Assembly (NCBI RefSeq): GCF_964355755.1
Contig: NC_092673.1
Location: 23,377,001 to 23,441,000 of the forward strand
Origin: Antedon mediterranea
Lineage: Eukaryota > Echinodermata > Crinoidea > Comatulida > Antedonidae
DNA: 64,000 bases
Direction: 5' to 3'
Shown: one piece after another, positions 40,101 through 64,000 of the stretch
Position numbering within the stretch: position 1 is the stretch's first letter
How the letters are laid out: the number at the start of each line of letters is the position of its first letter
Notes under the pieces: model-generated
What the model saw: only the letters and a program-made list of their open reading frames with translations
Databases searched by the model: none
What the model was told of the DNA's origin: nothing
Translations under genes and position numbers: made by a program

Positions 40101-42614
40101 TTTTTTTTATGTTGTTACAAAACGTAAACGTATATATTTAAATACTTTATATCTTCATTTCATCCTTTCAGCGAGCATCTTGTGAATGCTAGGATGCTTC
40201 AATGCGACAAGCTTTTTGACAAAAATAATTTAAAATCAGAAAAAAAAAAAAATAAATCACAATTATTTTCTCCCTTGCCTACAGTAATGAGATAACATGA
40301 TGCGCTGGAATTACATTTCACAAGTTAAATTGATCGAGAACCTTTCGAAAAACAATCAATAACAAAATATTCTGTATGGCAGTATAGGTTGGAGTGCTGC
40401 ACTGTAGAGGTATGGAGTTTTCTTGATGACCAGTTTGCAATCTACATTAGTTAAAGTTAAAATGCGGGCTGATACAGTAAATCTTTTGAGTGTAAAACAA
40501 ATGGTCAAACATTAAGGTCTAGGTCGGAGTTGGTAACCATGGTATAACACTGTATGAACACAGTGCAAAAATCCGATTTGTAGGATGACATTAATTGAGT
40601 TGCGTATATATAAAAAAATAACTCTTAATAGCTCCATAGTTAAAAGCATCAAAACGACGCAACGCTTAATACAGGATATATTTGAAAAGTCCACAGCGTA
40701 TTGAGAAAGTTTGTGACATTTTTTTATAAGGCACAATAGAAATGGTTTATATGTATGTATGCGATAAATAATGGGCTATTGTCGGTTTATACAGGTAAGC
40801 TAGACACGAAATAGACAACTTTAATACAAACCACAGTAGAACTCCTTTCTTGGAACACCTGCAATATTTAAGGGACACTTTCAAGTGAATCAAATTTGGT
40901 TTGGTCCCAAATGTTTCCCTTAATCCTGGGGTCTCTATACTATACTGTAAAAATGAACAATGTATCAGTATATCTAAAAAAACAAAAACATTAAAAAACG
41001 TACTCTTATTCTTCTCATGGCCGACACAATTTCAACTCTACTGTTTGGGCGTGGCACATCAAGTGTTCCAATATACTAAAAAAGAAAATTGAAATCGGAT
41101 TAAATCTGATTAATATATAATTCTATTTTTGTATTTTTTTTTTTTTTTGTTATCAGTAACAAATTCCAGAAAAATGCCCAGAAATATTCAACAAAAACAT
41201 TTGAATCTATAAAAGGTTAATAATACAGTATGATGTACAGGTACATTATTGTATGAATAATTTTATGAATTATACAATATTAAATGCATAGATTAAATTA
41301 GCGAGTGAACCAGGGCATTTAGCAGTGAACCAGGGCATTTAGGAGTGAACCAGGGCATTTAGGAGTGAACCAGGGCATTTAGGAGTGAACCAGGGCATTT
41401 AGGAGTGAACCAGGGCATTTAGGAGTGAACCAGGGCATTTAGGAGTGAACCAGGGCATTTAGGAGTGAACCAGGGCATTTAGGAGTGAACCAGGGCATTT
41501 AGGAGTGAACCAGGGCATTTAGGAGTGAACCAGGGCATTTAGGAGTGAACCAGGGCATTTAGGAGTGAACCAGGGCATTTAGGAGTGAACCAGGGCATTG
41601 AGGCATTCTTCTGTCCCAATGTTGTTGAATAAGCTGTTTTTACTAGCTATATGCTCAGTTAACCACAAAGAAAGACTTCAACTTAGACCTTTTTAAATTC
41701 AATATTAAGTCTACACAAAGCAACAAGTCAATAAAATGTTTATAAAAATCAGATAAAAGGCTACGTAAGGTATTCTCATTAGGACAAACACAATCTAACT
41801 TTATATTTACAGCATAGCAAATATATTTAAAATTATATTCATATTGTTTATTACTGGCATTGAAATATTTTATTCTTTTCTAAATATAATTTCTAGTTTA
41901 AATGCAAGGTTCAAATTGATTACAGTACAGTAAATTAAAATACTGTAGGACCAGAATTTAAAAAACATTGGTAGACCAGCAAAAGATGCCATAACATTTG
42001 TTTAAAATATTAACTCCTCAAACCAGGGAAGGGTTGTAGGCAGGACCTGAAACATTTCCCAGGGCCTAGAATTCAGCAAAGTTGCAATGGGGTCTGAAAG
42101 CGAAGCGCTCAAGGCAGCATATTTGTTGAGGAAAATAAATTAATGTAATGATAGATCTCATGACAAATATTGACTTCCTAAATGCAATCAGAACAAACAA
42201 TTTTATCAAATCTATGTTTCTCTGTAATAAAAAAGGTTTGTCCAAAGCATAAAAATTCCCCCCTGCCTACTGTACGAGCCTGGACAACCTACCTCCTCTT
42301 GTACCCAAATTAATTTTAATGGACACGTAGTTTTAAACAGATTTCTCAAGAATACAGCATTTTGTATAATACTGTACATTACCTATACACGGAATATAAT
42401 ATAAGAAATTGTTTATGACTCATGGGATACATAATACCTTCTTGTATGTTATTTTATGATGTATTTAAATAAAATTTAAAATGCTTAGCGTTCATTTTTA
42501 ATAAATTACCTTCGCTTGGAAATGAATACCATGTTGAAACGCTTCGTCATTATGCAACGGGATTCTGGAATCGTACGTGTCTTCCACCAAATTGTATTTA
42601 TTCCTTTTAGGCAT
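128..42614 (-). CDS. NOS1AP: NOS1AP/CAPON-like PTB-domain adaptor protein, complete 9-exon gene model
   Basis: Coding exons, in transcript order: 42510-42614, 41004-41075, 10517-10609, 9611-9669, 7465-7573, 5448-5586, 2459-2568, 1514-1735, 128-1123. All have GT/AG borders, the phases join without a break, and the sum is 1905 nt (634 residues plus stop). Residues about 20-175 form a phosphotyrosine-binding domain whose exons match vertebrate NOS1AP almost block by block ([20 protein letters not shown] at the start, then [11 protein letters not shown], the lysine-rich [13 protein letters not shown], and [20 protein letters not shown]). Residues about 262-336 are a Gln-rich coiled coil ([20 protein letters not shown]). 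The remaining 300 residues are Ser/Thr/Asn-rich and probably disordered. In vertebrates the family links neuronal nitric oxide synthase to Dexras1, Scribble and synapsin at membranes; that role is carried over by homology only. The C-terminus (ETVNS) lacks the vertebrate PDZ-binding tail. Confidence 0.93.
1124..1513 (-). other. NOS1AP intron 8
   Basis: A short intron. At 1316-1381 a roughly 22-27-bp unit (ATAGGTTTGAATACCAGG) is repeated about three times imperfectly. Otherwise nothing is recognised. Confidence 0.7.
1514..1735 (-). CDS. NOS1AP: NOS1AP-like coding exon 8 (start of coiled coil, residues 230-303)
   Basis: A 222-nt exon, phase 0 at both ends. It begins [20 protein letters not shown] and continues into the Gln-rich heptad region ending SAARIEAQ. 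The block QTQVAVAQV is near-identical to vertebrate NOS1AP. The acceptor is TCTCTCTAG and the donor GTGAGA. Confidence 0.92.
1736..2458 (-). other. NOS1AP intron 7, with fragment of an interspersed 'CAGTGGAAC' repeat
   Basis: AT-rich intron. At about 2322-2420 a segment starting ACAGTGGAACTTGGTACACT with 'TTAAGGAGACACTT' resembles the interspersed family also seen at 39447-39585 and 40846-40940. Nothing else is recognised. Confidence 0.55.
2459..2568 (-). CDS. NOS1AP: NOS1AP-like coding exon 7 (linker, residues 193-229)
   Basis: A 110-nt exon found by splice logic. The phase-1 end of exon 6 and the phase-0 start of exon 8 demand 3n+2 nt between them. This interval has a TTTCTACAG acceptor and a GTATAA donor, and it is open in the needed phase. 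It reads [20 protein letters not shown] then [16 protein letters not shown]. The linker is Ser/Asp-rich and not conserved enough for homology to confirm it, so confidence is slightly lower than for its neighbours. Confidence 0.82.
2704..2999. mobile_element. MITE with 20-bp terminal inverted repeats (Tc1/mariner-like)
   Basis: The left end TAAAGTTCTGTCTACACTAT and right end (2980-2999) are inverted copies with two mismatches. A second inverted layer (GATGTCATATCACTACCATA against TATGGTAGTGAAATGACAT) lies inside. The ends begin and finish with TA, as expected for a TA target duplication. It has no coding capacity. It sits in NOS1AP intron 6. Confidence 0.75.
3000..4534. other. NOS1AP intron 6, unassigned part
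   Basis: No gene or conserved exon found. Around 3563-3680 a phrase 'CACGCTTGTGCTACCA' recurs once imperfectly, suggesting an old small duplication. The rest is AT-rich single-copy-looking DNA. Confidence 0.5.
4535..5020. mobile_element. MITE family A, copy 1
   Basis: The ends are GGGTATGTTCAGACTCACGG and its inverted counterpart (…GAGTCTGAACATACCC). They are flanked by TAA on both sides (…TCTAA|GGGTA and TACCC|TAAAT), which fits the 3-bp TWA duplication of PIF/Harbinger-type MITEs. A second layer (GTGTTCAGACACAACG against GTTCAGACACAGAAATA) lies inside. A sister copy in the opposite orientation is at 15866-16551. Open frames across it are by-products. Confidence 0.75.
5448..5586 (-). CDS. 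NOS1AP: NOS1AP-like coding exon 6 (C-terminal PTB helix, residues 147-193)
   Basis: A 139-nt exon starting [20 protein letters not shown], the long C-terminal helix of the PTB domain. An acidic stretch ([11 protein letters not shown]) then leaves the domain. The acceptor is CATTTTAG and the donor GTAATT. It ends in phase 1 (G), which required a further exon before the coiled-coil exon. Confidence 0.92.
5724..6040. repeat. Minisatellite, GGATATAGTCCCACGCT-type unit
   Basis: A degenerate 17-19-bp unit (GGATATAGTCCCACGCT) lies within larger 90-94-bp repeats: TTGGATATAG recurs at 5741, 5831 and 5925. Because the units drift around multiples of three, several frames stay open. These have repetitive Tyr/Pro/Ser composition and are not genes. 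It sits in NOS1AP intron 5. Confidence 0.85.
6041..7464 (-). other. NOS1AP intron 5, remainder
   Basis: No gene found. At 6218-6420 the words TTGCCCTGAGGGCAACC and 'CCTCAGGGCAACGAAAAA' form a loose inverted pair. Together with the NOS1AP-unrelated sequence between them they may be a decayed small transposon. Confidence 0.4.
7465..7573 (-). CDS. NOS1AP: NOS1AP-like coding exon 5 (PTB domain, residues 110-146)
   Basis: A 109-nt exon. After the one base that completes Arg110 it reads [20 protein letters not shown] then [16 protein letters not shown]. The acceptor is TTTTACAG and the donor GTACAG. This is the central peptide-binding beta strand region of the PTB fold. Confidence 0.93.
7574..9199 (-). 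other. NOS1AP intron 4, first part
   Basis: AT-rich intron. I see no conserved exon, RNA gene or complete mobile element here. Confidence 0.5.
9200..9552. repeat. Tandem duplication, 190-bp unit, about 1.9 copies
   Basis: Both copies start GTAATTTATGGGAAACCCCC (9200 and 9390) and end with AATTCTGTTGATATTG. Several internal deletions in the second copy make it shorter. It lies about 60 bp from the acceptor of NOS1AP exon 4. Confidence 0.85.
9611..9669 (-). CDS. NOS1AP: NOS1AP-like coding exon 4 (PTB domain, residues 91-110)
   Basis: A 59-nt exon encoding [20 protein letters not shown], with the final arginine codon split AG/A across the next intron. The WTWDE block is diagnostic for NOS1AP. 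The acceptor is TTTATTTTCAG and the donor GTAAGA. Confidence 0.93.
9670..10516 (-). other. NOS1AP intron 3, with dispersed-repeat fragment
   Basis: At 10256-10379 a stretch containing 'TGATGAAGGAATAGTATTGCCCA' (shown here split: TGATGAAGGAATAG, TATTGCCCAAAAGCTC) and 'TCTCCATTGAGA' resembles 15328-15424. The two are probably 3' tails of the same retroelement family. Nothing else is recognised. Confidence 0.5.
10517..10609 (-). CDS. NOS1AP: NOS1AP-like coding exon 3 (PTB domain, residues 60-90)
   Basis: A 93-nt exon reading [20 protein letters not shown] followed by [11 protein letters not shown]. The acceptor is TTTTTGCAG and the donor GTATTA; phase 0 at both ends. The lysine clusters flank a beta strand and are typical of NOS1AP. 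It lies 30.4 kb from exon 2 across the giant second intron. Confidence 0.93.
12196..12520 (+). mobile_element. tRNA-derived SINE (Leu/Ser-like head), copy 1
   Basis: The A box TGGCTGAGCTGTTAAG (12204-12219) and B box GGTTCAAGCC (12263-12272) are spaced as in a tRNA promoter. A body follows that is shared with the minus-strand copy at 14100-14349: AATATTG..GGACTATAAA, then CCAATGTACAC, then TTTTAAAGAACCTAGTACATC, then GAGATGAGTA. The acceptor stem does not pair, so it is not a working tRNA gene. Confidence 0.75.
12521..14099. other. Intron 2 segment with small repeats only
   Basis: Contains a short hairpin at about 12957-13023 (CATGGAGAAA … TTTCTCCATG) enclosing AATAGAACTTTATTGCAATC, probably the end of a decayed retroelement. 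A 21-bp tandem doublet lies at 13327-13368 (GAAATCATGTAGAAAATGCC twice). No gene seen. Confidence 0.5.
14100..14349 (-). mobile_element. tRNA-derived SINE (Leu/Ser-like head), copy 2
   Basis: Read on the minus strand, it begins AGGGCGAGTCAGATGGCCAA with A box TGGCCAAGCGGTTAAGG and B box GGTTTGAGGC (14265-14274 on plus). Then come the same body words as copy 1 (CTTCTCGGATAAGAACTATAA, here quoted in parts: CTTCTCGGAT, AAGAACTATAAACC; GTGTACAC; TTTAAAGAACCCAGTCCATC; GGGATGAGTA). Copies 1 and 2 are clearly diverged, so the family is old. Confidence 0.75.
14350..15865. other. Intron 2 segment with repeat fragments
   Basis: At 15003-15058 a fragment of the 'GGGACAC' interspersed family (AGAGCTCCTCCCTTGGGACA). 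At 15328-15424 a relative of the 10256 repeat (ACTGAGGAAGGGTTAGTACT … CCCAAAAGCTC … TCTCCATTGAGA). No gene seen. Confidence 0.45.
15866..16551. mobile_element. MITE family A, copy 2 (inverted relative to copy 1)
   Basis: The ends GGGTATGTTCAGACTCACAG and …GAGTCTGAAAATACCC match copy 1. On the minus strand it then follows copy 1 closely: GCGTACAGTAATCCGTGGCG, GGTGTTCAGACACAACGATC, and the middle segment ATCACTGACGCCAACTTTA. It carries about 200 bp more than copy 1, chiefly in the AT-rich middle. Confidence 0.75.
16552..18149. other. Intron 2 segment, nothing recognised
   Basis: AT-rich DNA without a supported gene, RNA or complete mobile element. The longest open frames (about 66 codons) have no coding character. 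Confidence 0.5.
18150..18320. mobile_element. Degraded relative of the 2704-2999 MITE
   Basis: Shares with that element TATGGTAGTGAAAT, GTAGTGATATGACATCATCA, CATATATGGGCACAT and the terminal word GGCAGAGCTTTAGA. The left half carries a small internal duplication of CACTGTCTTCACTA. Confidence 0.55.
18525..18550. other. Perfect 10-bp hairpin
   Basis: ACCCCAGACA, a 6-base loop, then TGTCTGGGGT. The stem is GC-rich in an AT-rich setting. The function is unknown and it could be the remnant of a foldback repeat. Confidence 0.6.
18551..20383. other. Intron 2 segment with one copy of a dispersed 35-bp motif and a hairpin
   Basis: The dispersed motif (core GTTTATCCAGGTAAGCTAGG) is at 19173-19207. 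A 12-bp perfect hairpin TTGTTTCTAAAA/TTTTAGAAACAA is at 19948-19979. No gene seen. Confidence 0.5.
20384..20574. mobile_element. Short MITE with about 32-bp terminal inverted repeats
   Basis: The left end TTGGTTCCACTAGCGACACA, continuing ACGTAATGCACA, is matched by the inverted right end …TGTGTAATGTTGTATCGCAAG then TGGGAACAA, with about six mismatches. The interior is 120 bp and GC-richer than the flanks, with no ORF. Confidence 0.65.
20575..24527. other. Intron 2 segment, no supported gene
   Basis: Contains an open frame 20852-21169 on plus (see findings), an 11-bp perfect hairpin TAGAAATAGAC/GTCTATTTCTA at about 21780-21809, and a near-palindrome CCTATATTCATTGAATATAG near 22314. A segment ending GAAACAGGCCCTTA at 22108-22121 recalls the ends of the 24528 element. 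The rest is AT-rich and unremarkable. Confidence 0.45.
24528..25346. mobile_element. Non-autonomous foldback element with multiple internal end-like motifs
   Basis: The outer ends TA-GGCCCTGTTTCTGCTGCC and (inverted) …TTGGCAGCAGAAACGGGGCC match over 22-23 bp. End-like CGTTTCTGCTG motifs recur inside at about 24594 (+, one mismatch), 25145 (-) and 25270 (+). Each is followed by TACCGTATATA-type subterminal repeats (24557-24585, 25134-25260, 25305-25320). There is no transposase. Apparent ORFs of 60-113 codons here run through the inverted repeats and are not supported. Confidence 0.7.
25401..25425 (+). repeat. Harbinger left terminal inverted repeat
   Basis: 25 bp, identical to the reverse complement of 29604-29628. 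Confidence 0.92.
25588..26996 (+). CDS. Harbinger DDE transposase (two exons)
   Basis: Exons 25588-25775 and 26105-26996 (GTAAGC donor, TTTCCCTTAG acceptor, split Arg63) give 359 residues. The start was chosen at ACAACATGG, a strong initiation context; the frame is also open upstream to 25507. The DDE_Tnp_4 catalytic core is intact: Asp177 in GFVDGT, Asp258 in YGDPAYPL and Glu295 in SVEWLFGD. The family landmarks [13 protein letters not shown] and GRRHDAFLL lie between them. The N-terminal part ([20 protein letters not shown]) is also typical. Family role: it cuts and pastes the element and works with the Myb-like partner, which brings it to the ends. There is no stop or frameshift, so it may be functional. 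Confidence 0.9.
27673..29447 (-). CDS. Harbinger Myb/SANT-like DNA-binding protein (four exons)
   Basis: Exons 29427-29447, 28812-28846, 28086-28493 and 27673-27988 join in phase (780 nt, 259 residues plus stop). The first reads MEAVSSK. The third holds the Myb/SANT-like trihelix region with spaced aromatics ([20 protein letters not shown] … [11 protein letters not shown] … [14 protein letters not shown]). The C-terminal half is a highly charged then Gln-rich coiled coil ([26 protein letters not shown]). Autonomous Harbingers of animals carry such a second protein, which binds the transposon ends and helps nuclear import of the transposase. The exons at 29427 and 28812 are short; they were accepted because start, splice sites and phases fit. 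Confidence 0.82.
29604..29628 (-). repeat. Harbinger right terminal inverted repeat
   Basis: 25 bp, exact inverse of the left end. The TTA after 29627 is part of the presumed target site. Confidence 0.92.
29629..36559. other. Intron 2 segment, mostly unassigned
   Basis: A short inverted-repeat pair at about 31550-31641 (TACATTCACACTTGA … AAAAGTGTGAATGTACC) looks like a 90-bp MITE. At 34851-34915 a GC-rich patch starting CAGTGGCGTAAC with GGGGCCCC words resembles the end of an interspersed hAT-like repeat. No gene, RNA gene or long tandem array was found in the remainder, which is very AT-rich. Confidence 0.45.
36560..36690 (+). pseudogene. Possible NDUFS1 (complex I 75-kDa subunit) N-terminal fragment
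   Basis: The frame reads [20 protein letters not shown], followed by [15 protein letters not shown]. This resembles the start of the 2Fe-2S ferredoxin-like domain of NDUFS1 (an IEVFVDG.SVM.EPGTTVLQAC type motif). The cysteine ligands that should follow are absent, and the frame stops after 36703. If real, it is a decayed gene fragment or retrocopy on the strand opposite to NOS1AP. Similarity is limited to about 35 residues, so chance is possible. Confidence 0.3.
36691..39358. other. Intron 2 segment with repeat fragments
   Basis: At 37005-37060 the words GACGTTTCGATAAATATGC and CTCCTGAGGAAAAT recall the tails of Penelope-like elements (inference). The dispersed 35-bp motif is at 37231-37264. 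No gene seen. Confidence 0.4.
39359..39438. repeat. 21-bp minisatellite, about 3.8 copies
   Basis: Unit TTCTAACCCCTTATTTGGG plus TA, perfect across copies. Confidence 0.92.
39447..39590. mobile_element. Interspersed 'GGGGACA … TAGAGGTTCCACTG' repeat
   Basis: Contains CCTCTATTCAAGGAACAAGG, GGGACACTTT, TTGTCCCCTTAATAGAGGTT and CCACTGT. Inverted halves (CAACCTCTATTCAAGG/CCTTAATAGAGGTTCC) form a small foldback. Related fragments lie at 2322-2420, 13873-13910, 15003-15058 and 40846-40940. Confidence 0.55.
39591..41003. other. Intron 2, 5' end
   Basis: The dispersed 35-bp motif copy is at 40782-40816, and a GGGACACTTT-type repeat fragment follows directly to about 40940. No gene seen. Confidence 0.45.
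41004..41075 (-). CDS. NOS1AP: NOS1AP-like coding exon 2 (PTB domain, residues 36-59)
   Basis: A 72-nt microexon, too short for ordinary ORF detection. It reads [20 protein letters not shown] then RRIR, the first strand and helix of the PTB fold. The acceptor is TTTTTTAG and the donor GTACGT; phase 0 at both ends. Both borders coincide with the vertebrate exon. Confidence 0.93.
41076..42509 (-). other. NOS1AP intron 1
   Basis: A 1.4-kb intron holding the 20-bp minisatellite. Otherwise AT-rich without recognisable features. Confidence 0.8.
41301..41600. repeat. 20-bp minisatellite, 15 copies, almost perfect
   Basis: Unit AGGAGTGAACCAGGGCATTT. Copies 3-14 are identical. Only the first two copies (GCG…, AGC…) and the last base of the final copy differ. 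This is GC-rich relative to its surroundings and lies within NOS1AP intron 1, about 225 bp upstream (transcript sense) of exon 2. Confidence 0.97.
42510..42614 (-). CDS. NOS1AP: NOS1AP-like coding exon 1 (start codon, residues 1-35)
   Basis: Reads [20 protein letters not shown], then [15 protein letters not shown], the same start and the same splice point as vertebrate NOS1AP exon 1. The ATG is at 42614-42612 and the donor is GTAATT just below 42510. No other ATG is needed, because the family begins exactly here. Upstream DNA (42615-42720) is probably 5' UTR; a TTTGCAG/GTTTT acceptor-like site near 42708 could mark a leader intron. Confidence 0.93.
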
Positions 42615-45521: not shown

Positions 45522-45529
45522 CAGCAGGC
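45522..45529 (+). repeat. Left copy of 8-bp target site duplication (CAGCAGGC)
   Basis: Identical to 56716-56723. Each copy directly abuts the first base of the terminal inverted repeat. Confidence 0.85.
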
Positions 45530-45697
45530 GCTTGTGTCAAGCTAGCCAACAATAAGCCAGCCAACAATAAGCCAGCCCACTTTTATTTTTTCCAGCCAAC
45601 AATAACTATGAAACGCCGTTTGTGCATTCTTTACATTTTTATTGTTACTTATGGCTTTTATGGTATTAGGAATTAAATATTTGTGAGAAAAACGGCG
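45530..45697 (+). repeat. Left non-satellite terminal inverted repeat of the foldback element
   Basis: The tip GCTTGTGTCAAGC is itself a 5-bp stem with a 3-base loop. Tandem AGCCAACAATAAGCC words follow (45542-45575), then unique sequence up to AATTAAATATTTGTGAG, where the satellite begins. One base differs from the right end over about 167 bp. Confidence 0.9.
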
Positions 45698-48600
45698 GAT
45701 TGTTCCTGGGATTCACTTGGTGGGATTATACTAGGGTACCCCCTTAGTCGTCCAGTATAAGTTAGAGTGGGACCACTGGTCCCGTTTACTCAGCCCTCAT
45801 CATTAAAATTTGAGTGTAACTCAATTACGATTTTTAAAATATAGTTAAATTTGAAACTGTATTTGTGAGAAAATGGCGGATTGTTCCTGGGAGTCACTTG
45901 GTGGGATTATACTAGGGTACCCCCTTAGTCGTCCAGTATAAGTTAGAGTGCGACCACTGGTCCTGTTTACTCAGCCCTCATCTTTAAAATTTGAGTCTAA
46001 CTCAATTACAATTTTTAAAATATAGTTAAATTTGAAACTGTATTCGTGAGAAAATGGCGGATTGTTCCTGGGAGTCACTTGGTGGGATTATACTAGGGTA
46101 GCTCCTTAGTCATACAGTATAAGTTAGAGTGGGACCACTGGTACCGTTTACTCAGCCCTCACCTTTTAAATTTGAGTGTAACTCATTTACGATTTAAAAA
46201 ATATAGTGAAATTTGATACTGTATTTATGAGAAAATGGCGGATTGTTCCTGGGAGTCACTTGGTGGGATTATACTAGGGTACCTCCTTAGTTGTCCAGTA
46301 TAAGTTAGAGTGGGACCACTGGTCCCGTTTACTCAGCCCTCATCTTTAAAATTTGAGTGTAACTCATTTACGATTTTTAAAATATAGTGAAATTTGATAC
46401 TGTATTTGTGAGAAAACAGCGGATTGTTCCTGAGAGTCACTTGGTAGGATTATACTAGGGTACCCCCTTAGTCGTCCAGTATAAGTTAGAGTGGGACCAC
46501 TGGTCCCGTTTACTCAGCCCTCATCTTTAAAATTTGAGTGTAACTCATTTACGATTTTTAAAATATAGTGAAATTTGAAACTGTATTTGTGAGAAAACGG
46601 CGGATTGTTCCATAGAGTCACTTGGTGGGATTATACTAGGGTGCATCCTTAGTCGTCGAGTATAAGTTAGAGTGGGACCACTGGTCCCGTTTACTCAGCC
46701 CTCATCTTTTAAATTTGAGTGTAACTCATTTACGATTTTAAAAATATAGTGAAATTAGATACTGTATTTGTGAGAAAACGGCGGATTGTTCCTGGGAGTC
46801 ACATGGTGGGATTATACTAAGGTACGTCCTTAGTCGTCCAGTATAAGTTAGAGTGCGACCACTGGTTCCGTTTACTCAGTCCTCATCTTTTAAATTTGAG
46901 TGTAACTCAATTACGGTAAAAAAATTTTAAAATATAGTGAAAATTGATACTGTATTTGTGAGAAAATGGCGGATTGTTCCTGGGAGTCACTTGGTGGGAT
47001 TATACTAGGGTACCTCCTTAGTTGTCCAGTAGAAGTTAGAGTGGGACCACTGGTCCCGTTTACTCAGCCTTCATCTTTTAAATATGAATGTAACTCATTT
47101 ACGATTTAAAAAATATAGTGAAATTAGATACTGTATTTGTGAGAAAACGGCGGATTGTTCCTGGGAGTCACATGGTGGGATTATACTAAGGTACGTCCTT
47201 AGCCGTCCAGTATAAGTTAGAGTGCGACCACTGGTTCCGTTTACTCAGCCCTCATCTTTTAAATTTGAGTGTAACTCAATTACGGTAAAAAATTTTTAAA
47301 ATATAGTGAAAATTGATACTGTATTTGTGAGAAAATGGCGGATTGTTCCTGGGAGTCACTTGGTGGGATTATACTAGGGTACCTCCTTAGTTGTCCAGTA
47401 GAAATTAGAGTGGGACCACTGGTCCCGTTTACTCAGCCCTCATCTTTTAAATATGAATGTAACTCATTTACGATTTAAAAAATATAGTGAAATTTGATAC
47501 TGTATTTGTGAGAAAATGGCGGATTATTCATGGGAGTCACTTGGTGGGATTATACTAGGGTACCTCCTTAGTTGTCCAGTATAAGTTAGAGTGGGACCAC
47601 TGGTTCCGTTTACTCAGCCCTCATCTTTAAAATTTGAGTGTAACTCATTTACGATTTTTAAAATATAGTGAAATTTGATACTGTATTTGTGAGAAAACGG
47701 CGGATTGTTCCTGAGAGTCACTTGGTGGGATTATACTAGGGTACCCCCTTAGTCGTCCAGTATAAGTTAGAGTGGGACCACTGATCCCGTTTACTCAGCC
47801 CTCATCTTTTAAATTTGAGTTTAACTCATTTACGATTTTTAAAATATAGTGAAATTTGATACTGTATTTGTGAGAAAACGGCGGATTGTTCCTGAGAGTC
47901 ACTTGGTGGGATTATACTAGGGTGCATCCTTAGTCGTCCAGTATAAGTTAGAGTGGGACCACTTGTCCTGTTTACTCAGCCCTCATCTTTTAAATTTGAG
48001 TGTAACTCATTTACGATTTTAAAAATATAGTGAAATTAGATACTGTATTTGTGAGAAAACGGCGGATTGTTCCTGGGAGTCACATGGTGGGATTATACTA
48101 AGGTACGTCCTTAGTCGTCCAGTATAAGTTAGAGTGCGACCACTGGTTCCATTTACTCAGCCCTCATCTTTTAAATTTGAGTCTAACTCAATTACAATTT
48201 TTAAAATATAGTTAAATTTGAAACTGTATTCGTGAGAAAATGGCGGATTGTTCCTGGGAGTCACTTGGTGGGATTATACTAGGGTAGCTCCTTAGACGTA
48301 CAGTATAAGTTAGAGTGGGACCACTGGTACCGTTTACTCAGCCCTCACCTTTTAAATTTGAGTGTAACTCATTTACGATTTAAAAAATATAGTGAAATTT
48401 GATACTGTATTTATGAGAAAATGGCGGATTGTTCCTGGGAGTCACTTGGTGGGATTATACTAGGGTACCTCCTTAGTTGTCCAGTATAAGTTAGAGTGGG
48501 ACCACTGGTCCCGTTTACTCAGCCCTCATCTTTAAAATTTGAGTGTAACTCATTTACGATTTTTAAAATATAGTGAAATTTGATACTGTATTTGTGAGAA

Positions 48601-50739
48601 AACAGCGGATTTTTCCTGAGAGTCACTTGGTAGGATTATACTAGGGTACCCCCTTAGTCGTCCAGTATAAGTTAGAGTGGGACCACTGGTCCCGTTTACT
48701 CAGCCCTCATCTTTTAAATTTGAGTGTAACTCATTTACGATTTTTAAAATATAGTGAAATTTGAAACTGTATTTGTGAGAAAACGGCGGATTGTTCCATA
48801 GAGTCACTTGGTGGGATTATACTAGGGTGCATCCTTAGTCGTCGAGTATAAGTTAGAGTGGGACCACTGGTCCCGTTTACTCAGCCCTCATCTTTTAAAT
48901 TTGAGTGTAACTCATTTACGATTTTAAAAATATAGTGAAATTAGATACTGTATTTGTGAGAAAACGGCGGATTGTTCCTGGGAGTCACATGGTGGGATTA
49001 TACTAAGGTACGTCCTTAGTCGTCCAGTATAAGTTAGAGTGCGACCACTGGTTCCGTTTACTCAGTCCTCATCTTTTAAATTTGAGTGTAACTCAATTAC
49101 GGTAAAAAAATTTTAAAATATAGTGAAAATTGATACTGTATTTGTGAGAAAATGGCGGATTGTTCCTGGGAGTCACTTGGTGGGATTATACTAGGGTACC
49201 TCCTTAGTTGTCCAGTAGAAGTTAGAGTGGGACCACTGGTCCCGTTTACTCAGCCTTCATCTTTTAAATATGAATGTAACTCATTTACGATTTAAAAAAT
49301 ATAGTGAAATTAGATACTGTATTTGTGAGAAAACGGCGGATTGTTCCTGGGAGTCACATGGTGGGATTATACTAAAGGTACGTCCTTAGCCGTCCAGTAT
49401 AAGTTAGAGTGCGACCACTGGTTCCGTTTACTCAGCCCTCATCTTTTAAATTTGAGTGTAACTCAATTACGGTAAAAAATTTTTAAAATATAGTGAAAAT
49501 TGATACTGTATTTGTGAGAAAATGGCGGATTGTTCCTGGGAGTCACTTGGTGGGATTATACTAGGGTACCTCCTTAGTTGTCCAGTAGAAGTTAGAGTGG
49601 GACCACTGGTCCCGTTTACTCAGCCCTCATCTTTTAAATATGAATGTAACTCATTTACGATTTAAAAAATATAGTGAAATTTGATACTGTATTTGTGAGA
49701 AAATGGCGGATTGTTCATGGGAGTCACTTGGTGGGATTATACTAGGGTACCTCCTTAGTTGTCCAGTATAAGTTAGAGTGGGACCACTGGTCCCGTTTAC
49801 TCAGCCCTCATCTTTAAAATTTGAGTGTAACTCATTTACGATTTTTAAAATATAGTGACATTTGATACTGTATTTGTGAGAAAACGGCGGATTGTTCCTG
49901 AGAGTCACTTGGTGGGATTATACTAGGGTACCCCCTTAGTCGTCCAGTATAAGTTAGAGTGGGATCACTGATCCCGTTTACTCAGCCCTCATCTTTTAAA
50001 TTTGAGTTTAACTCATTTACGATTTTTAAAATATAGTGAAATTTGATACTGTATTTGTGAGAAAACGGCGGATTGTTCCTGGGAGTCACTTGGTGGGATT
50101 ATACTAGGGTGCATCCTTAGTCGTCCAGTATAAGTTAGAGTGGGACCACTTGTCCTGTTTACTCAGCCCTCATCTTTTAAATTTGAGTGTAACTCATTTA
50201 CGATTTTAAAAATATAGTGAAATTAGATACTGTATTTGTGAGAAAACGGCGGCGGATTGTTCCTGGGAGTCACATGGTGGGATTATACTAAGGTACGTCC
50301 TTAGTCGTCCAGTATAAGTTAGAGTGCGACCACTGGTTCCATTTACTCAGCCCTCATCTTTTAAATTTGAGTGTAACTCAATTACGGTAAAAAAATTTAA
50401 AATATAGTGAAAATTGATACTGTATTTGTGAGAAAATGGCGGATTGTTCCTAGGAGTCACTTGGTGGGATTATACTAGGGTACCTCCTTAGTTCTCCAGT
50501 AGAAGTTAGAGTTGGACCACTGGTCCCGTTTACTCAGCCCTCATCTTTAACGTTTGAGTGTAACTCAATTACGATTAATATTTTAAAATATAGTGAAATT
50601 TGATACTGTATTTGTGAGAAAATGGCGGATTGTTCCCGAGAGTCACTTGGTGGGATTATACTAGCGTACCTCCTTAGTTGTCCAGTTTAAGTTAGAGTGG
50701 GACCACTGGTCCCGTTTACTCAGCCCTTATCTTTAAAAT
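45680..50739 (+). repeat. Left arm: about 28 copies of a 181-188-bp satellite monomer
   Basis: The landmark GGCGGATTG recurs at 45694, 45875, 46056, 46237, 46418, 46599, 46780, 46968, 47149 and so on (steps of 181, sometimes 188). The monomer contains GGATTGTTCCTGGGAGTCAC, GGGATTATACTAGGGTACC, GTCCAGTATAAGTTAGAGTG, the palindrome GGGACCACTGGTCCC and TTTACTCAGCCCTCATCTTT. The 188-bp form has an expanded A/T tract (GGTAAAAAAATTTTAAAATA). A block of 12 monomers (about 2186 bp) is duplicated: private variants at 46056, 46599 and 47518 recur at 48242, 48784 and 49705. Confidence 0.95.
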
Positions 50740-50814
50740 TTGAGTGTAACTCAATTACGATTAATATTTTAAAGATGAGGGCTGAGTAAACGGGACCAGT
50801 GGTCCCACTCTAAC
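50691..50814. repeat. Centre of the foldback: 49-bp near-perfect hairpin stem with 26-base loop
   Basis: GTTAGAGTGGGACCACTGGT … TATCTTTAAAAT (50691-50739) pairs with ATTTTAAAGATGAGGGCTGA … CCACTCTAAC (50766-50814). The loop TTGAGTGTAACTC-AATTACGATTAAT is ordinary monomer sequence. The arrays switch strand here without any unique spacer. Confidence 0.92.
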
Positions 50815-53800
50815 TTATACAGGATGACTAAAGAGGTACTCTAGTATAATCCCACCAAGTGACTCTCAGGAACAATACGCTGTTTTCTCACAAATACAGT
50901 ATCAAATTTCACTATATTTTAAAAATCGTAAATGAGTTACACTCAAATTTTAAAGATGAGGGCTGAGTAAACGGGACCAGTGGTCCCACTCTAACTTATA
51001 CTGGACGACTAAGGGTGTACCCTAGTATAATCCCACCAAGTGACTCTCAGGAACAATCCGCCGTTTTCTCACAAATACAGTTTCAAATTTCACTATATTT
51101 TAAAAATCGTAAATGAGTTACACTCAAATTTTAAAGATGAGGGCTGAGTAAACGGGACCAGTGGTCCCACTCTAACTTATACTGGACAACTAAGAGGGTA
51201 CCCTAGTATAATCCCACCAAGTGACTCCCAGGAACAATCCGCCATTTTCTCACAAATACAGTATCAAATTTCACTATATTTTAAAAATTTTATCGTAATT
51301 GAGTTACACTCAAATTTAAAAGATGAGGGCTGAGTAAACGGGACCAGTGGTCGCACTCTAACTTATACTGGACGACTAAGGACGTACCTTAGTATAACCC
51401 CACCATGTGACTCCGAGGAACAATCCGCCGTTTTCTTACAAATACAGTATCAAATTTCACTATATTTTTAAAATCGTAAATGAGTTACACTCAAATTTAA
51501 AAGATGAGGGCTTAGTAAACGGGACCAGTGGTCCCACTCTAACTTATACTGGACGACTAGGGAGGCACCGTAGTATAATCCCACCAAGTGACTCTCAGGA
51601 ACAATCCGCCGTTTTCTCACAAATACAGTATCAAATTTCACTATATTTTAAAATATTAATCGTAATTGAGTTACACTCAAACGTTAAAGATGACGGCTGA
51701 GTAAACCGGACCAGTGGTCCCACTCTAACTGATACTGGACGACTAAGGGGGTAACCTAGTATAATCCCACTAAGTGACTCCCAGGAACAATCCGCCATTT
51801 TCTCACAAATACAGTATCAAATTTCACTATATTTTAAAATATTAATCGTAATTGAGTTACACTCAAACGTTAAAGATGAGGGCTGAGTAAACGGGACCAG
51901 TGGTCCCACTCTAACTTATACTGGAAAACTGAGGAGGTACCCTAGTATAATCCCACCAAGTGACTCCCAGGAACAATCCGCCATTTTCTCACAAATACAG
52001 TATCAATTTTCACTATATTTTAAAAATGTTATCGTAATTGAGTTACACTCAAATTAAAAGATGAGGGCTGAGTAAACGGGACCAGTGGTCGCACTCTAAC
52101 TTATACTGGACGACTAAGGACGTACCTTAGTATAACCCCACCATGTGACTCCGAGGAACAATCCGCCGTTTTCTCACAAATACAGTATCAAATTTCACTA
52201 TATTTTGAAATATTAATCGTAATTGAGTTACACTCAAACGTTAAAGATGAGGGCTGAGTAAACGGGACCAGTGGTCCCACTCTAACTTCTACTGGACAAC
52301 TAAGGAGGTACCCTAGTATAATCCCACAAAGTGACTCCCAGGAACAATCCGCCATTTTCTCACAAATACAGTATCAATTTTCACTATATTTTAAAATTTT
52401 TTATCGTAATTGAGTTACACTCAAATTTAAAAGATGAGGGCTGAGTAAACGAAACCAGTGGTCGCACTCTAACTTATACTGGACAACTAAGGACGTACCT
52501 TAGTATAATCCCACCATGTGACTCCCAGGAACAATCCGCCGTTTTCTCACAAATACAGTATCTAATTTCACTATATTTTTAAAATCGTAATTGAGTTACA
52601 CTCAAATGTTAAAGATGAGGGCTGAGTAAACGGGACCAGTAGTCCCACTCTAACTTATACTGGACAACTAAGGAGGTACCCTAGTATAATCCCACCAAGT
52701 GACTCTCATGAACAATCCGCCGTTTTCTCACAAATACAGTATCACATTTCACTATATTTTAAAGATCATAAATGAGTTAAACTCAAATTTTAAAGATGAG
52801 GGCTGAGTAAACGGGACCAGTGGTCCCACTCTAATTTATACTGGACAACTAAGTAGGTACCCTAGTATAATCCCACCAAGTGACTCCCAGGAACAATCCG
52901 CCGTTTTCTCACAAATACAGTTTCAAATTTCACTATATTTTAAAAATCGTAAATGAGTTACACTCAAATTTTAAAGATGAGGGCTGAGTAAACGGGACCA
53001 GTGGTCCCACTCTAACTTATACTGGACGACTAAGGGGGTACCCTAGTATAATCCCACCAAGTGACTCCCAGGAACAATCCGCCATTTTTTCACAAATACA
53101 GTATCAAATTTCACTATATTTTAAAAATCGTAAATGAGTTACACTCAAATTTTAAAGATGAGGGCTGAGTAAACCGGACCAGTGGTCCCACTCTAACTTA
53201 TACTGGACGACTAAGGGGGTAACCTAGTATAATCCCACCAAGTGACTCCCAGGAACAATCCGCCATTTTCTCACAAATACAGTATCAAATTTCACTATAT
53301 TTTTTTAATCGTAAATGAGTTACACTCAAATTTAAAAGATGAGGGCTGAGTAAACAGTACCAGTGGTCCCACTCTAACTTATACTGTACGACTAAGGAGG
53401 TACCCTAGTATAATCCCACCAAGTGACTCCCAGGAACAATCCGCCATTTTCTCACAAATACAGTATCAAATTTCACTATATTTTAAAAATCGTAAATGAG
53501 TTACACTCAAATTTTAAAGATGAGGGCTGAGTAAACCGGACCAGTGGTCCCACTCTAACTTATACTGGACGACTAAGGACGTACCCTAGTATAATCCCAC
53601 CAAGTGACTCTCAGGAACAATCCGCCGTTTTCTCACAAATACAGTTTCAAATTTCACTATATTTTAAAAATTGTAAATGAGTTACACTCAAATTTTAAAG
53701 ATGAGGGCTGAGTAAATGGGACCAGTGGTCCCACTCTAACTTATACTGGACGACTAAGGGGGTAACCTAGTATAATCCCACCAAGTGACTCCCAGGAACA

Positions 53801-56560
53801 ATCCGCCATTTTCTCACAAATACAGTATCAAATTTCACTATATTTTAAAAATTGTAAATGAGTTACACTCAAATTTTAAAGATGAGGGCTGAGTAAATGG
53901 GACCAGTGGTCCCACTCTAACTTATACTGGACGACTAAGGGGGTACCCTAGTATAATCCCACCAAGTGACTCCCAGGAACAATCCGCCATTTTTCACAAA
54001 TACAGTATCAAATTTCACTATATTTTAAAAATCGTAAATGAGTTACACTCAAATGTTAAAGATGAGGGCTGAGTAAACCGGACCAGTGGTCCCACTCTAA
54101 CTTATACTGGACGACTAAGGGGGTAACCTAGTATAATCCCACCAAGTGACTCCCAGGAACAATCCGCCATTTTCTCACAAATACAGTATCAAATTTCACT
54201 ATATTTTAAAATATTAATCGTAATTGAGTTACACTCAAACGTTAAAGATGAGGGCTGAGTAAACGGGACCAGTGGTCCCACTCTAACTTATACTGGACAA
54301 CTAAGGAGGTACCCTAGTATAATCCTACCAAGTGACTCCCAGGAACAATCCGCCATTTTCTCACAAATACAGTATCAAATTTCACTATATTTTAAAAATC
54401 GTAAATGAGTTACACTCAAATTTTAAAGATGAGAGCTGAGTAAACCGGACCAGTGGTCCCACTCTAACTTATACTGGACGACTAAGGGAGTAACCTAGTA
54501 TAATCCCACCAAGTGACTCCCAGGAACAATCCGCCATTTTCTCACAAATACAGTATCAAATTTCACTATATTTTAAAATATTAATCGTAATTGAGTTACA
54601 CTCAAACGTTAAAGATGAGGGCTGAGTAAACGGGACCAGTGGTCCCACTCTAACTTATACTGGACAACTAAGGAGGTACCCTAGTATAATCCCACCAAGT
54701 GACTCCCAGGAACAATCCGCCATTTTCTCACAAATACAGTATCAAATTTCACTATATTTTAAAAATCGTAAATGAGTTACACTCAAATTTTAAAGATGAG
54801 GGCTGAGTAAACCGGACCAGTGGTCCCACTCTAACTTATACTGGACGACTAAGGGGGTAACCTAGTATAATCCCACCAAGTGACTCCCAGGAACAATCCG
54901 CCATTTTCTCACAAATACAGTATCAAATTTCACTTTATTTTTTTAATCGTAAATGAGTTACACTCAAATTTAAAAGATGAGGGCTGAGTAAACAGTACCA
55001 GTGGTCCCACTCTAACTTATACTGTACGACTAAGGAGGTACCCTAGTATAATCCCACCAAGTGACTCTCAGGAACAATCCGCCGTTTTCTCACAAATACA
55101 GTTTCAAATTTCACTATATTTTAAAAATTGTAAATGAGTTACACTCAAATTTTAAAGATGAGGGCTGAGTAAATGGGACCAGTGGTCCCACTCTAACTTA
55201 TACTGGACGACTAAGGGGGTACCCTAGTATAATCCCACCAAGTGACTCCCAGGAACAATCCGCCATTTTTTCACAAATACAGTATCAAATTTCACTATAT
55301 TTTAAAAATCGTAAATGAGTTACACTCAAATGTTAAAGATGAGGGCTGAGTAAACCGGACCAGTGGTCCCACTCTAACTTATACTGGACGACTAAGGGGG
55401 TAACCTAGTATAATCCCACCAAGTGACTCCCAGGAACAATCCGCCATTTTCTCACAAATACAGTATCAAATTTCACTATATTTTAAAATATTAATCGTAA
55501 TTGAGTTACACTCAAACGTTAAAGATGAGGGCTGAGTAAACGGGACCAGTGGTCCCACTCTAACTTATACTGGACAACTAAGGAGGTACCCTAGTATAAT
55601 CCTACCAAGTGACTCCCAGGAACAATCCGCCATTTTCTCACAAATACAGTATCAAATTTCACTATATTTTAAAAATCGTAAATGAGTTACACTCAAATTT
55701 TAAAGATGAGAGCTGAGTAAACCGGACCAGTGGTCCCACTCTAACTTATACTGGACGACTAAGGGAGTAACCTAGTATAATCCCACCAAGTGACTCCCAG
55801 GAACAATCCGCCATTTTCTCACAAATACAGTATCAAATTTCACTATATTTTAAAATATTAATCGTAATTGAGTTACACTCAAACGTTAAAGATGAGGGCT
55901 GAGTAAACGGGACCAGTGGTCCCACTCTAACTTATACTGGACAACTAAGGAGGTACCCTAGTATAATCCCACCAAGTGACTCCAAGGAACAATCCGCCAT
56001 TTTCTCACAAATACAGTATCAATTTTCACTCTATTTAAAAAATTTTATCGTAATTGAGTTACACTCAAATTTAAAAGATGAGGGCTGAGTAAACGGGACC
56101 AGTGGTCGCACTCTAACTTATACTGGACGACTAATGGGGTACCCTAATATAATCCCACCAAGTGAATCCCAGGAACAATCCGCCATTTTCTCACAAATAC
56201 AGTATCAATTTTCACTATATTTTAAAAATTTTATCGTAATTGAGTTACACTCAAATTTAAAAGATGAGGGCTGAGTAAACGGAACCAGTGGTCGCACTCT
56301 AACTTATACTGAACGACTAAGGGGGTACCCTAGTATAATCCCACCAAGTGACTCCCAGGAACAATCCGCCATTTTCTCACAAATACAGTTTCAAATTTAA
56401 CTATATTTTAAAAATCGTAATTGAGTTACACTCAAATTTTAAAGATGAGGGCTGAGTAAACGGGACCAGTGGTCCCACTCTAACTTATACTGGACGACTA
56501 AGGGGGTACCCTAGTATAATCCCACCAAGTGAATCCCAGGAACAATCCGCCGTTTTTCTC
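50766..56560 (-). repeat. Right arm: about 32 copies of the same monomer, opposite orientation
   Basis: Inverse of the left-arm monomer (AAAGATGAGGGCTGAGTAAA, GTGGTCCCACTCTAACTTAT, GTATAATCCCACCAAGTGAC, GGAACAATCCGCCATTTTCT). It has its own higher-order repeat: a 1277-bp block of seven monomers. Private variants AATCCTACCAAGTG (54320 and 55597) and GATGAGAGCTGAG (54428 and 55705) recur exactly 1277 bp apart. Confidence 0.95.
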
Positions 56561-56715
56561 ACAAATATTTAATTCCTAATACCATAAAAGCCATAAGTAA
56601 CAATGAAAATGTAAAGAATGCACAAACGGCGTTTCATAGTTATTGTTGGCTGGAAAAAATAAAAGTGGGCTGGCTTATTGTTGGCTGGCTTATTGTTGGC
56701 TAGCTTGACACAAGC
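56548..56715 (-). repeat. Right non-satellite terminal inverted repeat of the foldback element
   Basis: Inverse copy of 45530-45697. The single observed difference is TTTTCATTG versus TTTTTATTG in the shared orientation. Confidence 0.9.
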
Positions 56716-56723
56716 CAGCAGGC
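56716..56723 (+). repeat. Right copy of 8-bp target site duplication (CAGCAGGC)
   Basis: Direct repeat of 45522-45529. Confidence 0.85.
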
Positions 56724-61367: not shown

Positions 61368-64000
61368 CCCTACCTAGCTACTTACCTTTCTACCTACTGA
61401 CCTACCTACATACCTATCGACCTAGCTACCTACTGACCTAGCTAGCTACCAACCTAGCTAGCTACCGACCTACTTATCTATACTGACCTACCTACATACC
61501 TATCTATCTACCTACCTACTGACCTAGCTACATACCTATCGACCTAGCTACCTACCGACCTACTTATCTATACTGACCTACCTACATACCTATCTATCTA
61601 CCTACCTACTGACCTACCTACATACCTATCTACCTACCGACCTACTTATCTATACTGACCTACCTACATACCTATCTATCTACCTACCTACTGACCTACC
61701 TACATACCTATCGACCTAGCTACCTACCGACCTACTTATCTATACTGACCTACCTACATACCTATCTATCTACCTACCTACTGACCTACCTACATACCTA
61801 TTGACCTACCGACCTACTTATCTATACTGACCTACCTACATACCTATCTATCTACCTACCTACTGACCTACCTACATACCTACCGACCTAGCTACCTACC
61901 GACCTACTTATCTATACTGACCTACCTACATACCTATCTATCTACCTACCTACTGACCTAGCTACTGTAGCTACCGACCTAGCTACCTACCGACCTACTT
62001 ATCTATACTGACCTACCTACATACCTATCTAGTTATTTATCTACCTACTTACAGTACCTACCTATCTACCTACTGACCTATCTACCTACTGACCTATCTA
62101 CCTACTGACCTATCTACCTACTGACCTATCTACCTACTGACCTATCTACCTACTGACCTATCTACCTACTGACCTACCTACCTACCGACCTACCTACCTA
62201 CCGACCTACCTACCGACCTACCTACCTACCGACCTACCTACCTACCGACCTACCTACCTACCGACCTACCTACCTACCGACCTACCTACCTACCGACCTA
62301 CCTACCTACCGACCTACCTACCGACCTACCTACCTACCGACCTATCTACCTACCGACCTATCTACCTACCGACCTATCTACCTACCGACCTATCTACCTA
62401 CCGACCTATCTACCTACTGACATACCTACATACAACCTACCTACCTACCGACCTATCTACCTACCGACCTATCTACCTACCGATCTATCTACCTACCGAT
62501 ATACCTACATACAACCTACCTACCTATCAACCTTTCTAACCCTACCGACCTAACTACCTACCGACCTATCTACCTACCGACCTATCTACCTACCGACCTA
62601 ACTACCTACCGACCTATCTACCTACCGACCTATCTACCTACTGACATACCTACATACAACCTACCTACCTACCGACCTATCTACCTACCGACCTATCTAC
62701 CTACCGATCTATCTACCTACCGATATACCTACATACAACCTACCTACCTATCAACCTTTCTAACCCTACTGACCTATCTACCTACCGACCTATCTACCTA
62801 CCGATCTATCTACCTACCGATATACCTACATACAACCTACCTACCTATCAACCTTTCTAACCCTACTGACCTATCTACCTACCGATCTATCTACCTACCG
62901 ACCTATCTACCTACCGACCTATCTACCTACCGATATACCTACATACAACCTACCTACCTATCAACCTTTCTAACCCTACTGACCTAACTACCTACCGACC
63001 TATCTACCTACCGACCTATCTACCTACCGATCTATCTACCTACCGACCTATCTACCTACCGACCTATCTACCTACCGATCTATCTACCTACCGATATACC
63101 TACATACAACCTACCTACCTATCAACCTTTCTAACCCTACTGACCTAACTACCTACCGACCTATCTACCTACCGATCTATCTACCTACCGATCTATCTAC
63201 CTACCGACCTATCTACCTACCGATATACCTACATACAACCTACCTACCTATCAACCTTTCTAACCCTACTGACCTAACTACCTACCGACCTATCTACCTA
63301 CCGATCTATCTACCTACCGATCTATCTACCTACCGATCTATCTACCTACCGATATACCTACATACAACCTACCTACCTATCAACCTTTCTAACCCTACTG
63401 ACCTAACTACCTACCGACCTATCTACCTACCGATCTATCTACCTACCGACCTATCTACCTACCGACCTATCTACCTACCGATCTATCTACCTACCGATCT
63501 ATCTACCTACCGATCTATCTACCTACCGATCTATCTACCTACCGATATACCTACATACAACCTACCTACCTATCAACCTTTCTAACCCTACTGACCTAAC
63601 TACCTACCGACCTATCTACCTACCGATCTATCTACCTACCGATATACCTACATACAACCTACCTACCTATCAACCTTTCTAACCCTACTGACCTATCTAC
63701 CTACCGACCTATCTACCTACCGATCTATCTACCTACCGATCTATCTACCTACCGACCTATCTACCTACCGACCTATCTACCTACCGATCTATCTACCTAC
63801 CGACCTATCTACCTACCGATCTATCTACCTACCGATATACCTACATACAACCTACCTACCTATCAACCTTTCTAACCCTACTGACCTATCTACCTACCGA
63901 CCTATCTACCTACCGACCTATCTACCTACCGACCTATCTACCTACCGACCTATCTACCTACCGACCTATCTACCTACCGATCTATCTACCTACCGACCTA
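61368..64000. repeat. CTAC-type compound satellite, over 2.6 kb, continuing past the window
   Basis: Built from CTAC/CTAT/CGAC tetramers in three zones. Zone 1 (61368-62035) has an 82-91-bp unit marked by GACCTACTTATCTATACTGA at 61467, 61557, 61639, 61727, 61811, 61901 and 61992. Zone 2 (about 62040-62420) is a simple 16-bp unit CTACCTACYGACCTAY. Zone 3 (about 62420-64000) has 16-bp units interrupted by a longer cassette (GATATACCTACATACAACC … TATCAACCTTTCTAACCC) that recurs about ten times at irregular spacing. It lies in an intron of the F-box gene. Confidence 0.97.

Follow-up and report, generated by a model that had tools for sequence, protein, structure and literature searches.

Satellite palindromes carried as the body of a foldback DNA transposon, probably of Rehavkus type, in the crinoid Antedon mediterranea

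The spread of satellite arrays to new sites is a long-standing question, as is the origin of higher-order repeats. Among echinoderms, the TU elements of the sea urchin are foldback elements with tandem repeats of ~15 bp in their outer ends. A literature search for these TU elements found no dedicated paper, and a sea-urchin foldback element is cited in the paper on Tetris (PMC4079207). As described in passages of that paper, Tetris of Drosophila virilis is a non-coding foldback element whose inverted ends contain tandem repeats of ~220 bp; its target duplications measure 8–10 bp. Its arrays vary in length and hold up to 66 copies, its inverted ends reach 1,735 bp and enclose a unique middle, and its authors tie the element to satellite formation, suggesting that arrays of large size may have interfered both with the integrity of the element and with its ability to transpose. 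Rehavkus elements, according to passages of PMC6446971, have 9-bp duplications, ends of 26–400 bp, a PHD finger and a minisatellite; very few are known, and they are reported from arthropods and annelids. Rehavkus-1_TC of Tribolium castaneum, in the relevant section of PMC10218199, is a 9.5-kb element with a 164-bp satellite in each of its inverted termini, arranged mostly in arrays of 5 and 8 monomers. The Mutator/foldback element Tm1 of root-knot nematodes is described, in excerpts of PMC3169594, as having 9-bp duplications, composite ends of mostly 14-bp tandem units (8–21 bp each, 1–9 per end, differing in number between the ends) and a putative transposase resembling the Phantom subclass. 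Finally, Galileo of Drosophila, a foldback-like P element, has long, internally repetitive inverted ends whose repeats contain additional transposase binding sites (PMC3688188, in part).

Since Tetris and Rehavkus-1_TC carry them, satellite-like repeats in foldback ends were already known from these sources. An initial annotation of the DNA studied here had assumed that the arms of foldback transposons are as a rule short and unique, which does not hold for the internally repetitive ends of Tetris, Tm1 and Rehavkus-1_TC as these are described in the same passages (PMC4079207, PMC3169594, PMC10218199). Here we describe satellite DNA that makes up the body of a DNA transposon and has been carried by it to many separate sites of one genome. 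The starting point is an element within the window, by which we mean the whole 64,000-nucleotide stretch analysed (C4:23377001-23441000). It is probably a non-autonomous foldback DNA transposon whose body consists of two inverted satellite arrays, with a Rehavkus-type (Mutator-like) family as its most likely affiliation.

The element in the window and its two arms

The element occupies positions 45530-56715 of the window (11,186 bp) between two copies of CAGCAGGC, which a scan of the whole window found at 45522 and 56716 only, the reverse complement being absent. It starts with GCTTGTGTCAAGC, a small self-complementary tip of a 148-bp end, and its last bases are the reverse complement of GCTTGTGTCAAGC. 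When the first 400 bp were compared with the reverse complement of the last 400 bp, 398/400 positions matched, with two differences, and a 15-bp repeat of 2.6 copies (45539-45577, TRF) was found inside the left 148-bp end. Long, inverted and internally repetitive repeats thus take up nearly the whole element, as is characteristic of foldback transposons. Two satellite arrays in opposite orientation with matched ends and an 8-bp duplication at 45522..56723, comprising about 60 monomers, had been proposed in the initial annotation; TRF, the end comparison and the CAGCAGGC scan confirm this layout and the approximate number (Table 1). The ends had been given as almost identical over 167 bp. Their near-identity stands and reaches further than that, whereas the non-satellite end proper measures 148 bp.

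Table 1 Features of the satellite palindrome in the window (window positions).
Feature	Position	Strand	Basis or remark
Target-site duplication, left copy, 8 bp, CAGCAGGC	45522..45529	.	Only two occurrences in the window; family norm 9 bp
Left terminal inverted repeat, 148 bp, starts GCTTGTGTCAAGC	45530..45677	+	Family end alignment
Left satellite array, 27.9 copies, period 181	45678..50762	+	TRF, monomer split
Monomers L3-L13, block copy 1, left arm, 12-monomer period	46041..48045	+	L3/L15 to L13/L25 identity 0.983-1.0
Monomers L15-L25, block copy 2, left arm	48227..50232	+	Identity to L3-L13
Palindrome centre, arrays overlap by 10 bp (ATATTTTAAA)	50764..50773	.	Overlap reads as both arrays; spacer absent
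Right satellite array, 31.7 copies, period 181	50766..56567	-	TRF, monomer split; opposite orientation
Right terminal inverted repeat, 148 bp	56568..56715	-	End comparison, family alignment
Target-site duplication, right copy, 8 bp, CAGCAGGC	56716..56723	.	Only two occurrences in the window

Stop-to-stop frames of at least 110 codons were absent from the element, and the window held no Rfam family at gathering scores and no tRNA gene. Elsewhere in the window, a Harbinger-type transposase at 26076-26993 was 99% identical to an Antedon mediterranea protein, and the product of a minus-strand frame at 128-1120 shared 81% identity with a capon-like protein from Anneissia japonica, also a crinoid.

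The arms consist of long tandem arrays of a homogeneous monomer, as is required of satellite DNA, with 27 whole monomers in the left arm and 31 in the right, spaced mostly at 181 bp and otherwise at 180–190 bp. Left and right monomers of equal rank had a mean identity of 0.919, as against 0.920 for all left-right pairs, the outermost pair (0.995) being the exception. A mirror palindrome produced by recent inverted duplication of a whole arm was accordingly rejected, since monomers of equal rank resembled each other no more than left-right pairs drawn at random. In the left arm a block is duplicated with a period of 12 monomers, and the repeats of the right arm lie at 7, 8 and 9 monomers. These separate repeat patterns, together with the non-mirror order of the monomers, indicate that the two arms grew separately. 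Derivation of the monomer from the 148-bp end was also considered and rejected, as the best match between them was 12 bp (E 3.2), at chance level.

Palindromes that arise from chimeric or adapter-less reads, or from wrong joins within a one-way satellite array, are a known type of artefact, and satellite arrays are hard to assemble. The arms of the window element nevertheless differ in monomer order and length, so that neither is the other read back; this argues against a read artefact, from which mirrored arms would be expected.

A family of copies with constant ends

The genome (354,431,138 bases, 18 contigs) was searched with a 179-bp query from the left end (45522-45700), and 40 matches were scored among 107 first-look candidates, a figure that is therefore a lower bound. 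The at least 40 end matches were read as 17 inverted pairs and six single ends, which disposes of the concern that the ends might occur at this locus only. Chance is excluded as their source, because 17 pairs are inverted and most of the 16 testable pairs have their own 9-bp duplication. Pairs with both ends read span 7,500 to 33,174 bp. Ten of them (the window copy and nine others) were read completely, and all ten are palindromes of the ~181-bp monomer, 7,500–17,732 bp in length, with arms that are often unequal within one palindrome and reach up to 58 whole monomers. The C5:18.4 Mb copy holds a nested insertion of ~1.4 kb that looks like a hAT element.

For six further pairs the ends were read and the interiors probed with 20 short stretches. 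Of these probes, 16 matched the monomer, and the four that did not all lay in the pair at C3:8.28 Mb. The probes changed orientation from plus to minus in five of the six pairs; at C5:1.14 both were plus, so that opposed ends alone are demonstrated there. In the 17th pair (C4:17.14 Mb) the first 13 bp of the left end are missing; the duplication count covers the other 16 pairs. Among the single ends, C7:23.9 Mb had monomer in 6/6 probes, turning from plus to minus inside, and C9:22.9 Mb had monomer in 5/5, all minus. At C8:2.84 and C5:15.76 Mb the monomer was matched by 0/4 and 0/5 probes, respectively. The former survives as a very small, worn remnant, with monomer over 204 bp in one orientation and 326 bp in the other, and the latter retains 71 bp of monomer, while one of its five probes matched 118 bp of the C3 centre (see below) at 88%. 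The copies at C10:7.72 and C10:8.07 Mb each have one end and one arm interrupted by other sequence, and no second end was found within the 20 kb examined.

After exclusion of both C4:17.14 ends, C5:15.76 and C8:2.84, which are truncated or carry indels, 36 of the 40 ends could be aligned. Over the 148-bp end, 26/36 matched the consensus throughout, and the ends differed pairwise by 0.5% on average. This mean difference rose to 3.1% over the next ~142 positions, which belong to the first monomer, and was 9.2% (gaps counted) for monomers in general. Recent transposition that required the ends would give such near-constancy, and exchange between ends could add to it.

Footprints and movement of whole palindromes

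All 16 pairs in which both ends are complete are bounded by identical terminal bases. Of these, 11 are flanked by an exact 9-bp target duplication; two match at 8 of 9 positions, two (the window copy and C10:24.97) have an exact 8-bp duplication, and C7:1.14 matches at 7 of 9, as read from the flank letters. The family norm is 9 bp, and the 8-bp duplication of the window copy is thus a near-standard footprint. Since ten separate full loci share one layout, most with a 9-bp duplication of their own, an origin of the palindromes in assembly or read errors is very improbable, the more so as the same join recurs at unrelated sites.

This recurrence is clearest for the window copy and the C7:1.14-Mb copy, which have both arms in common in flipped orientation. 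Their ends matched at 594/600 and 600/600 positions and their centre joins at 995/999, the longest exact match was 678 bp, and no similarity was found between their flanks. That the same arms and the same centre join lie in unrelated flanks shows that satellite palindromes move whole. A further join, read from the letters, is common to C10:22.8, C4:3.74 and, flipped, C5:18.4 and C7:1.17; compared with C10:22.8, the surroundings of this join agreed at 999/1000 positions in C4:3.74, 953/976 in C5:18.4 (48 gapped columns) and 919/986 in C7:1.17 (28 gapped columns). Exact stretches of 956 bp were common to two other copies and of 975 bp to C1:38.67 and C3:20.65, which share arms and have different centres. 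Within any single element (n = 10), the longest exact match between the two arms was 285 bp or less. The claim of the initial annotation that a satellite palindrome had moved as a transposon is therefore borne out by paired ends, target duplications and the presence of the same two-armed element at unrelated sites.

Spread of the palindromes by segmental duplication or satellite exchange, with merely incidental flanking repeats, would fit the clear duplication of monomer blocks within arms and the exact stretches that different lineages have in common. Against this, the 16 complete pairs all end at the same terminal bases, and duplications of 9 bp at 11/16 pairs are not incidental. When the flanks of 18 copies were compared, the sole match between copies was one of 26 bp (C4:3.99 with the right flank of the window copy), the one long match being between the two flanks of C5:18.4 itself. 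We regard this explanation as extremely improbable and retain transposition of whole palindromes.

Centre joins of six kinds were found among the ten fully read palindromes. In a k-mer analysis the arms overlapped at four kinds of join (by 10, 5, 3 and 1 bp), and at the other two kinds 15 and 24 bp were assigned to neither arm; joining at short matches is therefore possible and not general. The arms of the ten full copies were cut into 622 pieces, of which eight of unusual length were dropped and 614 classed by similarity, and each arm was written as a string of monomer classes. The closest sister insertions (the window copy with C7:1.14, and C10:22.8 with C4:3.74) are 99–100% alike at ends and centre, and sister arms differ by entire monomer blocks. 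Single growth steps can therefore be read, and the whole-block differences are interpreted as growth after or between jumps. Monomer blocks are duplicated inside the arms, in agreement with the earlier suggestion that the satellite grew inside the transposon. Between copies classed in different lineages, exact matches reach 356 bp, which makes some exchange between lineages likely.

A coding relative and the probable identity of the family

One coding copy was seen, at C3:8279859-8313032 (33,174 bp), flanked on both sides by ATGTGCGAG, an exact 9-bp duplication. A 148-bp end bounds it on either side; inside these ends lie two satellite arms in opposite orientation, which enclose a coding centre. 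Its arms measure 10,007 and 7,406 bp (53 and 39 whole monomers), and its centre of 15,761 bp is sited where the monomers change orientation. Two open frames, of 1108 and 774 codons, lie in this centre. The first (P0127) contains a PHD finger (PF00628; 24.2 bits, cut-off 24), and PHD fingers from the PDB match the same stretch. The second, which follows it, contains USP- and ULP1-type domains: a UCH ubiquitin-protease domain (74.2 bits) and an Ulp1/C48 (Peptidase_C48) domain (68.5 bits). Alignment with SENP1 showed that the H, D and C, which we take to be the catalytic triad, are all kept in the Ulp1/C48 domain. By reading, the two frames can be joined in phase across a GT-AG intron; counted from the first methionine in frame one, the product would have 1,822 residues, and a further upstream exon is possible.

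In the joined core, D264, D340, C387xxH390 and E587 were picked out by eye, and presumably resemble the D/D/CxxH/E pattern of Mutator and hAT transposases. Pfam transposase models gave no match to the C3 copy at E up to 10, with the frames apart or joined, so that membership of the Rehavkus/Mutator-like group rests on architecture. PDB transposases gave no sequence match to the C3 protein, the joined core producing two chance-level matches, and a tblastn search with P0127 against phage records found none. The Rehavkus traits found are the 9-bp duplication (11/16), 148-bp ends followed by tandem arrays, and the PHD finger (in the one coding copy).

An alternative is a foldback transposon moved by a different transposase, for example one supplied from elsewhere in the genome by a Phantom-type or another Mutator-like element, with the C3 centre captured by or nested in the element. 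The C3 core without a transposase profile match would suit this, and 9-bp duplications and repetitive ends also fit the Phantom-type Tm1, as far as it is described in parts of PMC3169594. On the other hand, the C3 centre encodes a PHD finger, as is stated for Rehavkus in a passage of PMC6446971. As regards capture, little exact sequence is common to the C3 arms and the palindromes, and the innermost whole monomers of the C3 copy are undecayed (0.967 and 0.983 to the consensus), as with a younger insertion. Yet the centre lies exactly at the change of monomer orientation, and the incomplete monomers that border it show decay. Moreover, comparison of the 400 bp just within each border gave no inverted matches longer than 10 bp and no direct matches longer than 8 bp, and the centre therefore shows no ends of its own. 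Weighing these points, we consider a different transposase with a captured or nested centre unlikely, and a Rehavkus-type family remains the preferred assignment.

Exact matches between the C3 arms and any of the ten palindromes were 391 bp or shorter, and thus give no sign that any of these palindromes descends from the C3 copy. A search for remnants of the C3 centre in 12 copies gave, among the 20 best matches, ~58 bp of decayed monomer, the one larger exception being 94 bp in C10:8.07 Mb.

Footprints, movement as whole units, independently grown arms, different joins and a coding relative whose ends and arms are the same, all read directly in the assembled genome, suggest a mechanism in which coding copies would make the transposase, which would bind the 148-bp ends. 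This enzyme would excise the element and insert it with a 9-bp stagger, regardless of the content between the ends. Loss of the coding centre and joining of the inverted arms by end repair would give satellite-only palindromes, which would then be mobilised in trans. Between jumps, multi-monomer blocks would be duplicated or lost, so that the arms lengthen and shorten, and the 148-bp ends would stay nearly constant. More tentatively, and with more doubt than confidence, we propose that the higher-order satellite was born, enlarged and dispersed in a giant Rehavkus-type transposon with a transposase fused to ubiquitin and SUMO proteases, and that mobile, centre-deleted palindromes found new arrays where they land. 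If a satellite was indeed born and dispersed in a transposon, related copies with differing block numbers would form a natural series of satellite growth. The PHD, ubiquitin-protease and SUMO-protease domains of the coding region could act on host chromatin or on SUMO silencing.

ULP1 domains are known in other transposons, and a paper on Ginger elements (PMC2836005) reportedly mentions ULP1 21 times. Among the papers listed in searches on Mutator-like elements, none was recognised as describing a combination of ULP1 with PHD or ubiquitin domains, and we make no claim that it is unreported.

The family resembles the TU elements of the sea urchin in layout, being an echinoderm foldback with ~15-bp repeats in its outer ends. 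In the parts of the source that describe Galileo (PMC3688188), the element belongs to the P superfamily. In the present family, the monomer matches the 148-bp end no better than chance; by analogy with Galileo, the arm monomers may carry transposase binding sites. With Tm1, as excerpted from PMC3169594, the family shares 9-bp duplications and tandem units that are unequal in number between the ends, and differs in having a ~181-bp monomer rather than units of 8–21 bp. The likeness to Rehavkus, in the passages of PMC6446971, extends to the 9-bp duplication, the length of the ends, the PHD finger and tandem repeats near the ends. Here, however, the host is a crinoid rather than an arthropod or annelid, and UCH and C48 protease domains are present, while the words "ULP" and "ubiquitin" are absent from the main text of that paper. 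Compared with Rehavkus-1_TC, as given in part of PMC10218199, the present family has arms of up to 58 whole monomers, a 33-kb coding copy and centre-less palindromes. Tetris, in the passages of PMC4079207, is likewise a foldback element with tandem repeats in its inverted ends, target duplications, length variation and a link to satellites. In contrast to it, arms of 2–11 kb are found here in elements that keep both ends and the target duplication, and ten full elements that are almost wholly satellite (7.5–17.7 kb) carry footprints, contrary to the suggestion made there about larger arrays. What sets the family apart from these systems is its scale, its occurrence in a crinoid, its protease domains and the insertion footprints around palindromes that have no centre.

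Other repeats and a Harbinger-type transposon in the window

Outside the palindrome, the window carries a Harbinger-type transposon that may be complete, together with two minisatellites. A simple-repeat array built on CCTA, with a higher period of 32 bp, was also seen at 61369-64000; it is at least 2.6 kb long and continues past the window end.

Further features of the window
Feature	Position	Strand	Description
Harbinger-type transposon	25399-29630		Exact 27-bp inverted ends
Transposase frame of this transposon	26076-26993		DDE_Tnp_4
Second frame of this transposon	28085-28552	Opposite to transposase frame	Myb/SANT-like match slightly below Pfam cut-off
Minisatellite	39359-39437		21-bp unit, 3.8 copies, 100%; very uniform
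Minisatellite	41298-41603		20-bp unit, 15.2 copies, 98%; very uniform

Minisatellites in the coding centre on C3

The coding centre between the satellite arms of the C3 copy of the palindrome family has minisatellites of its own, at 3887-5174 and 9971-11136 of the concatenated sequence of C3:8289500-8307500. The second of these lies within the open frame of the PHD-finger protein, and its unit of 117 bp corresponds to 39 residues.

Surroundings of copies on C5, C7 and C8

The two flanks of the palindrome copy at C5:18404830-18421908 have 468 bp in common at 92.5% identity, which indicates that this copy is placed between two copies of another repeat. Within C7:1140461-1179192, two palindromes classed in different lineages are found less than 40 kb apart (pairs at 1.140-1.156 and 1.168-1.179 Mb).

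A miniature, worn relic of the family is present at C8:2838729, where a single 136-bp end is accompanied by 204 bp of monomer in one orientation and 326 bp in the other. On both sides of this relic, a direct repeat of the surrounding sequence was read by eye; at ~45 bp, it is far longer than a target duplication.
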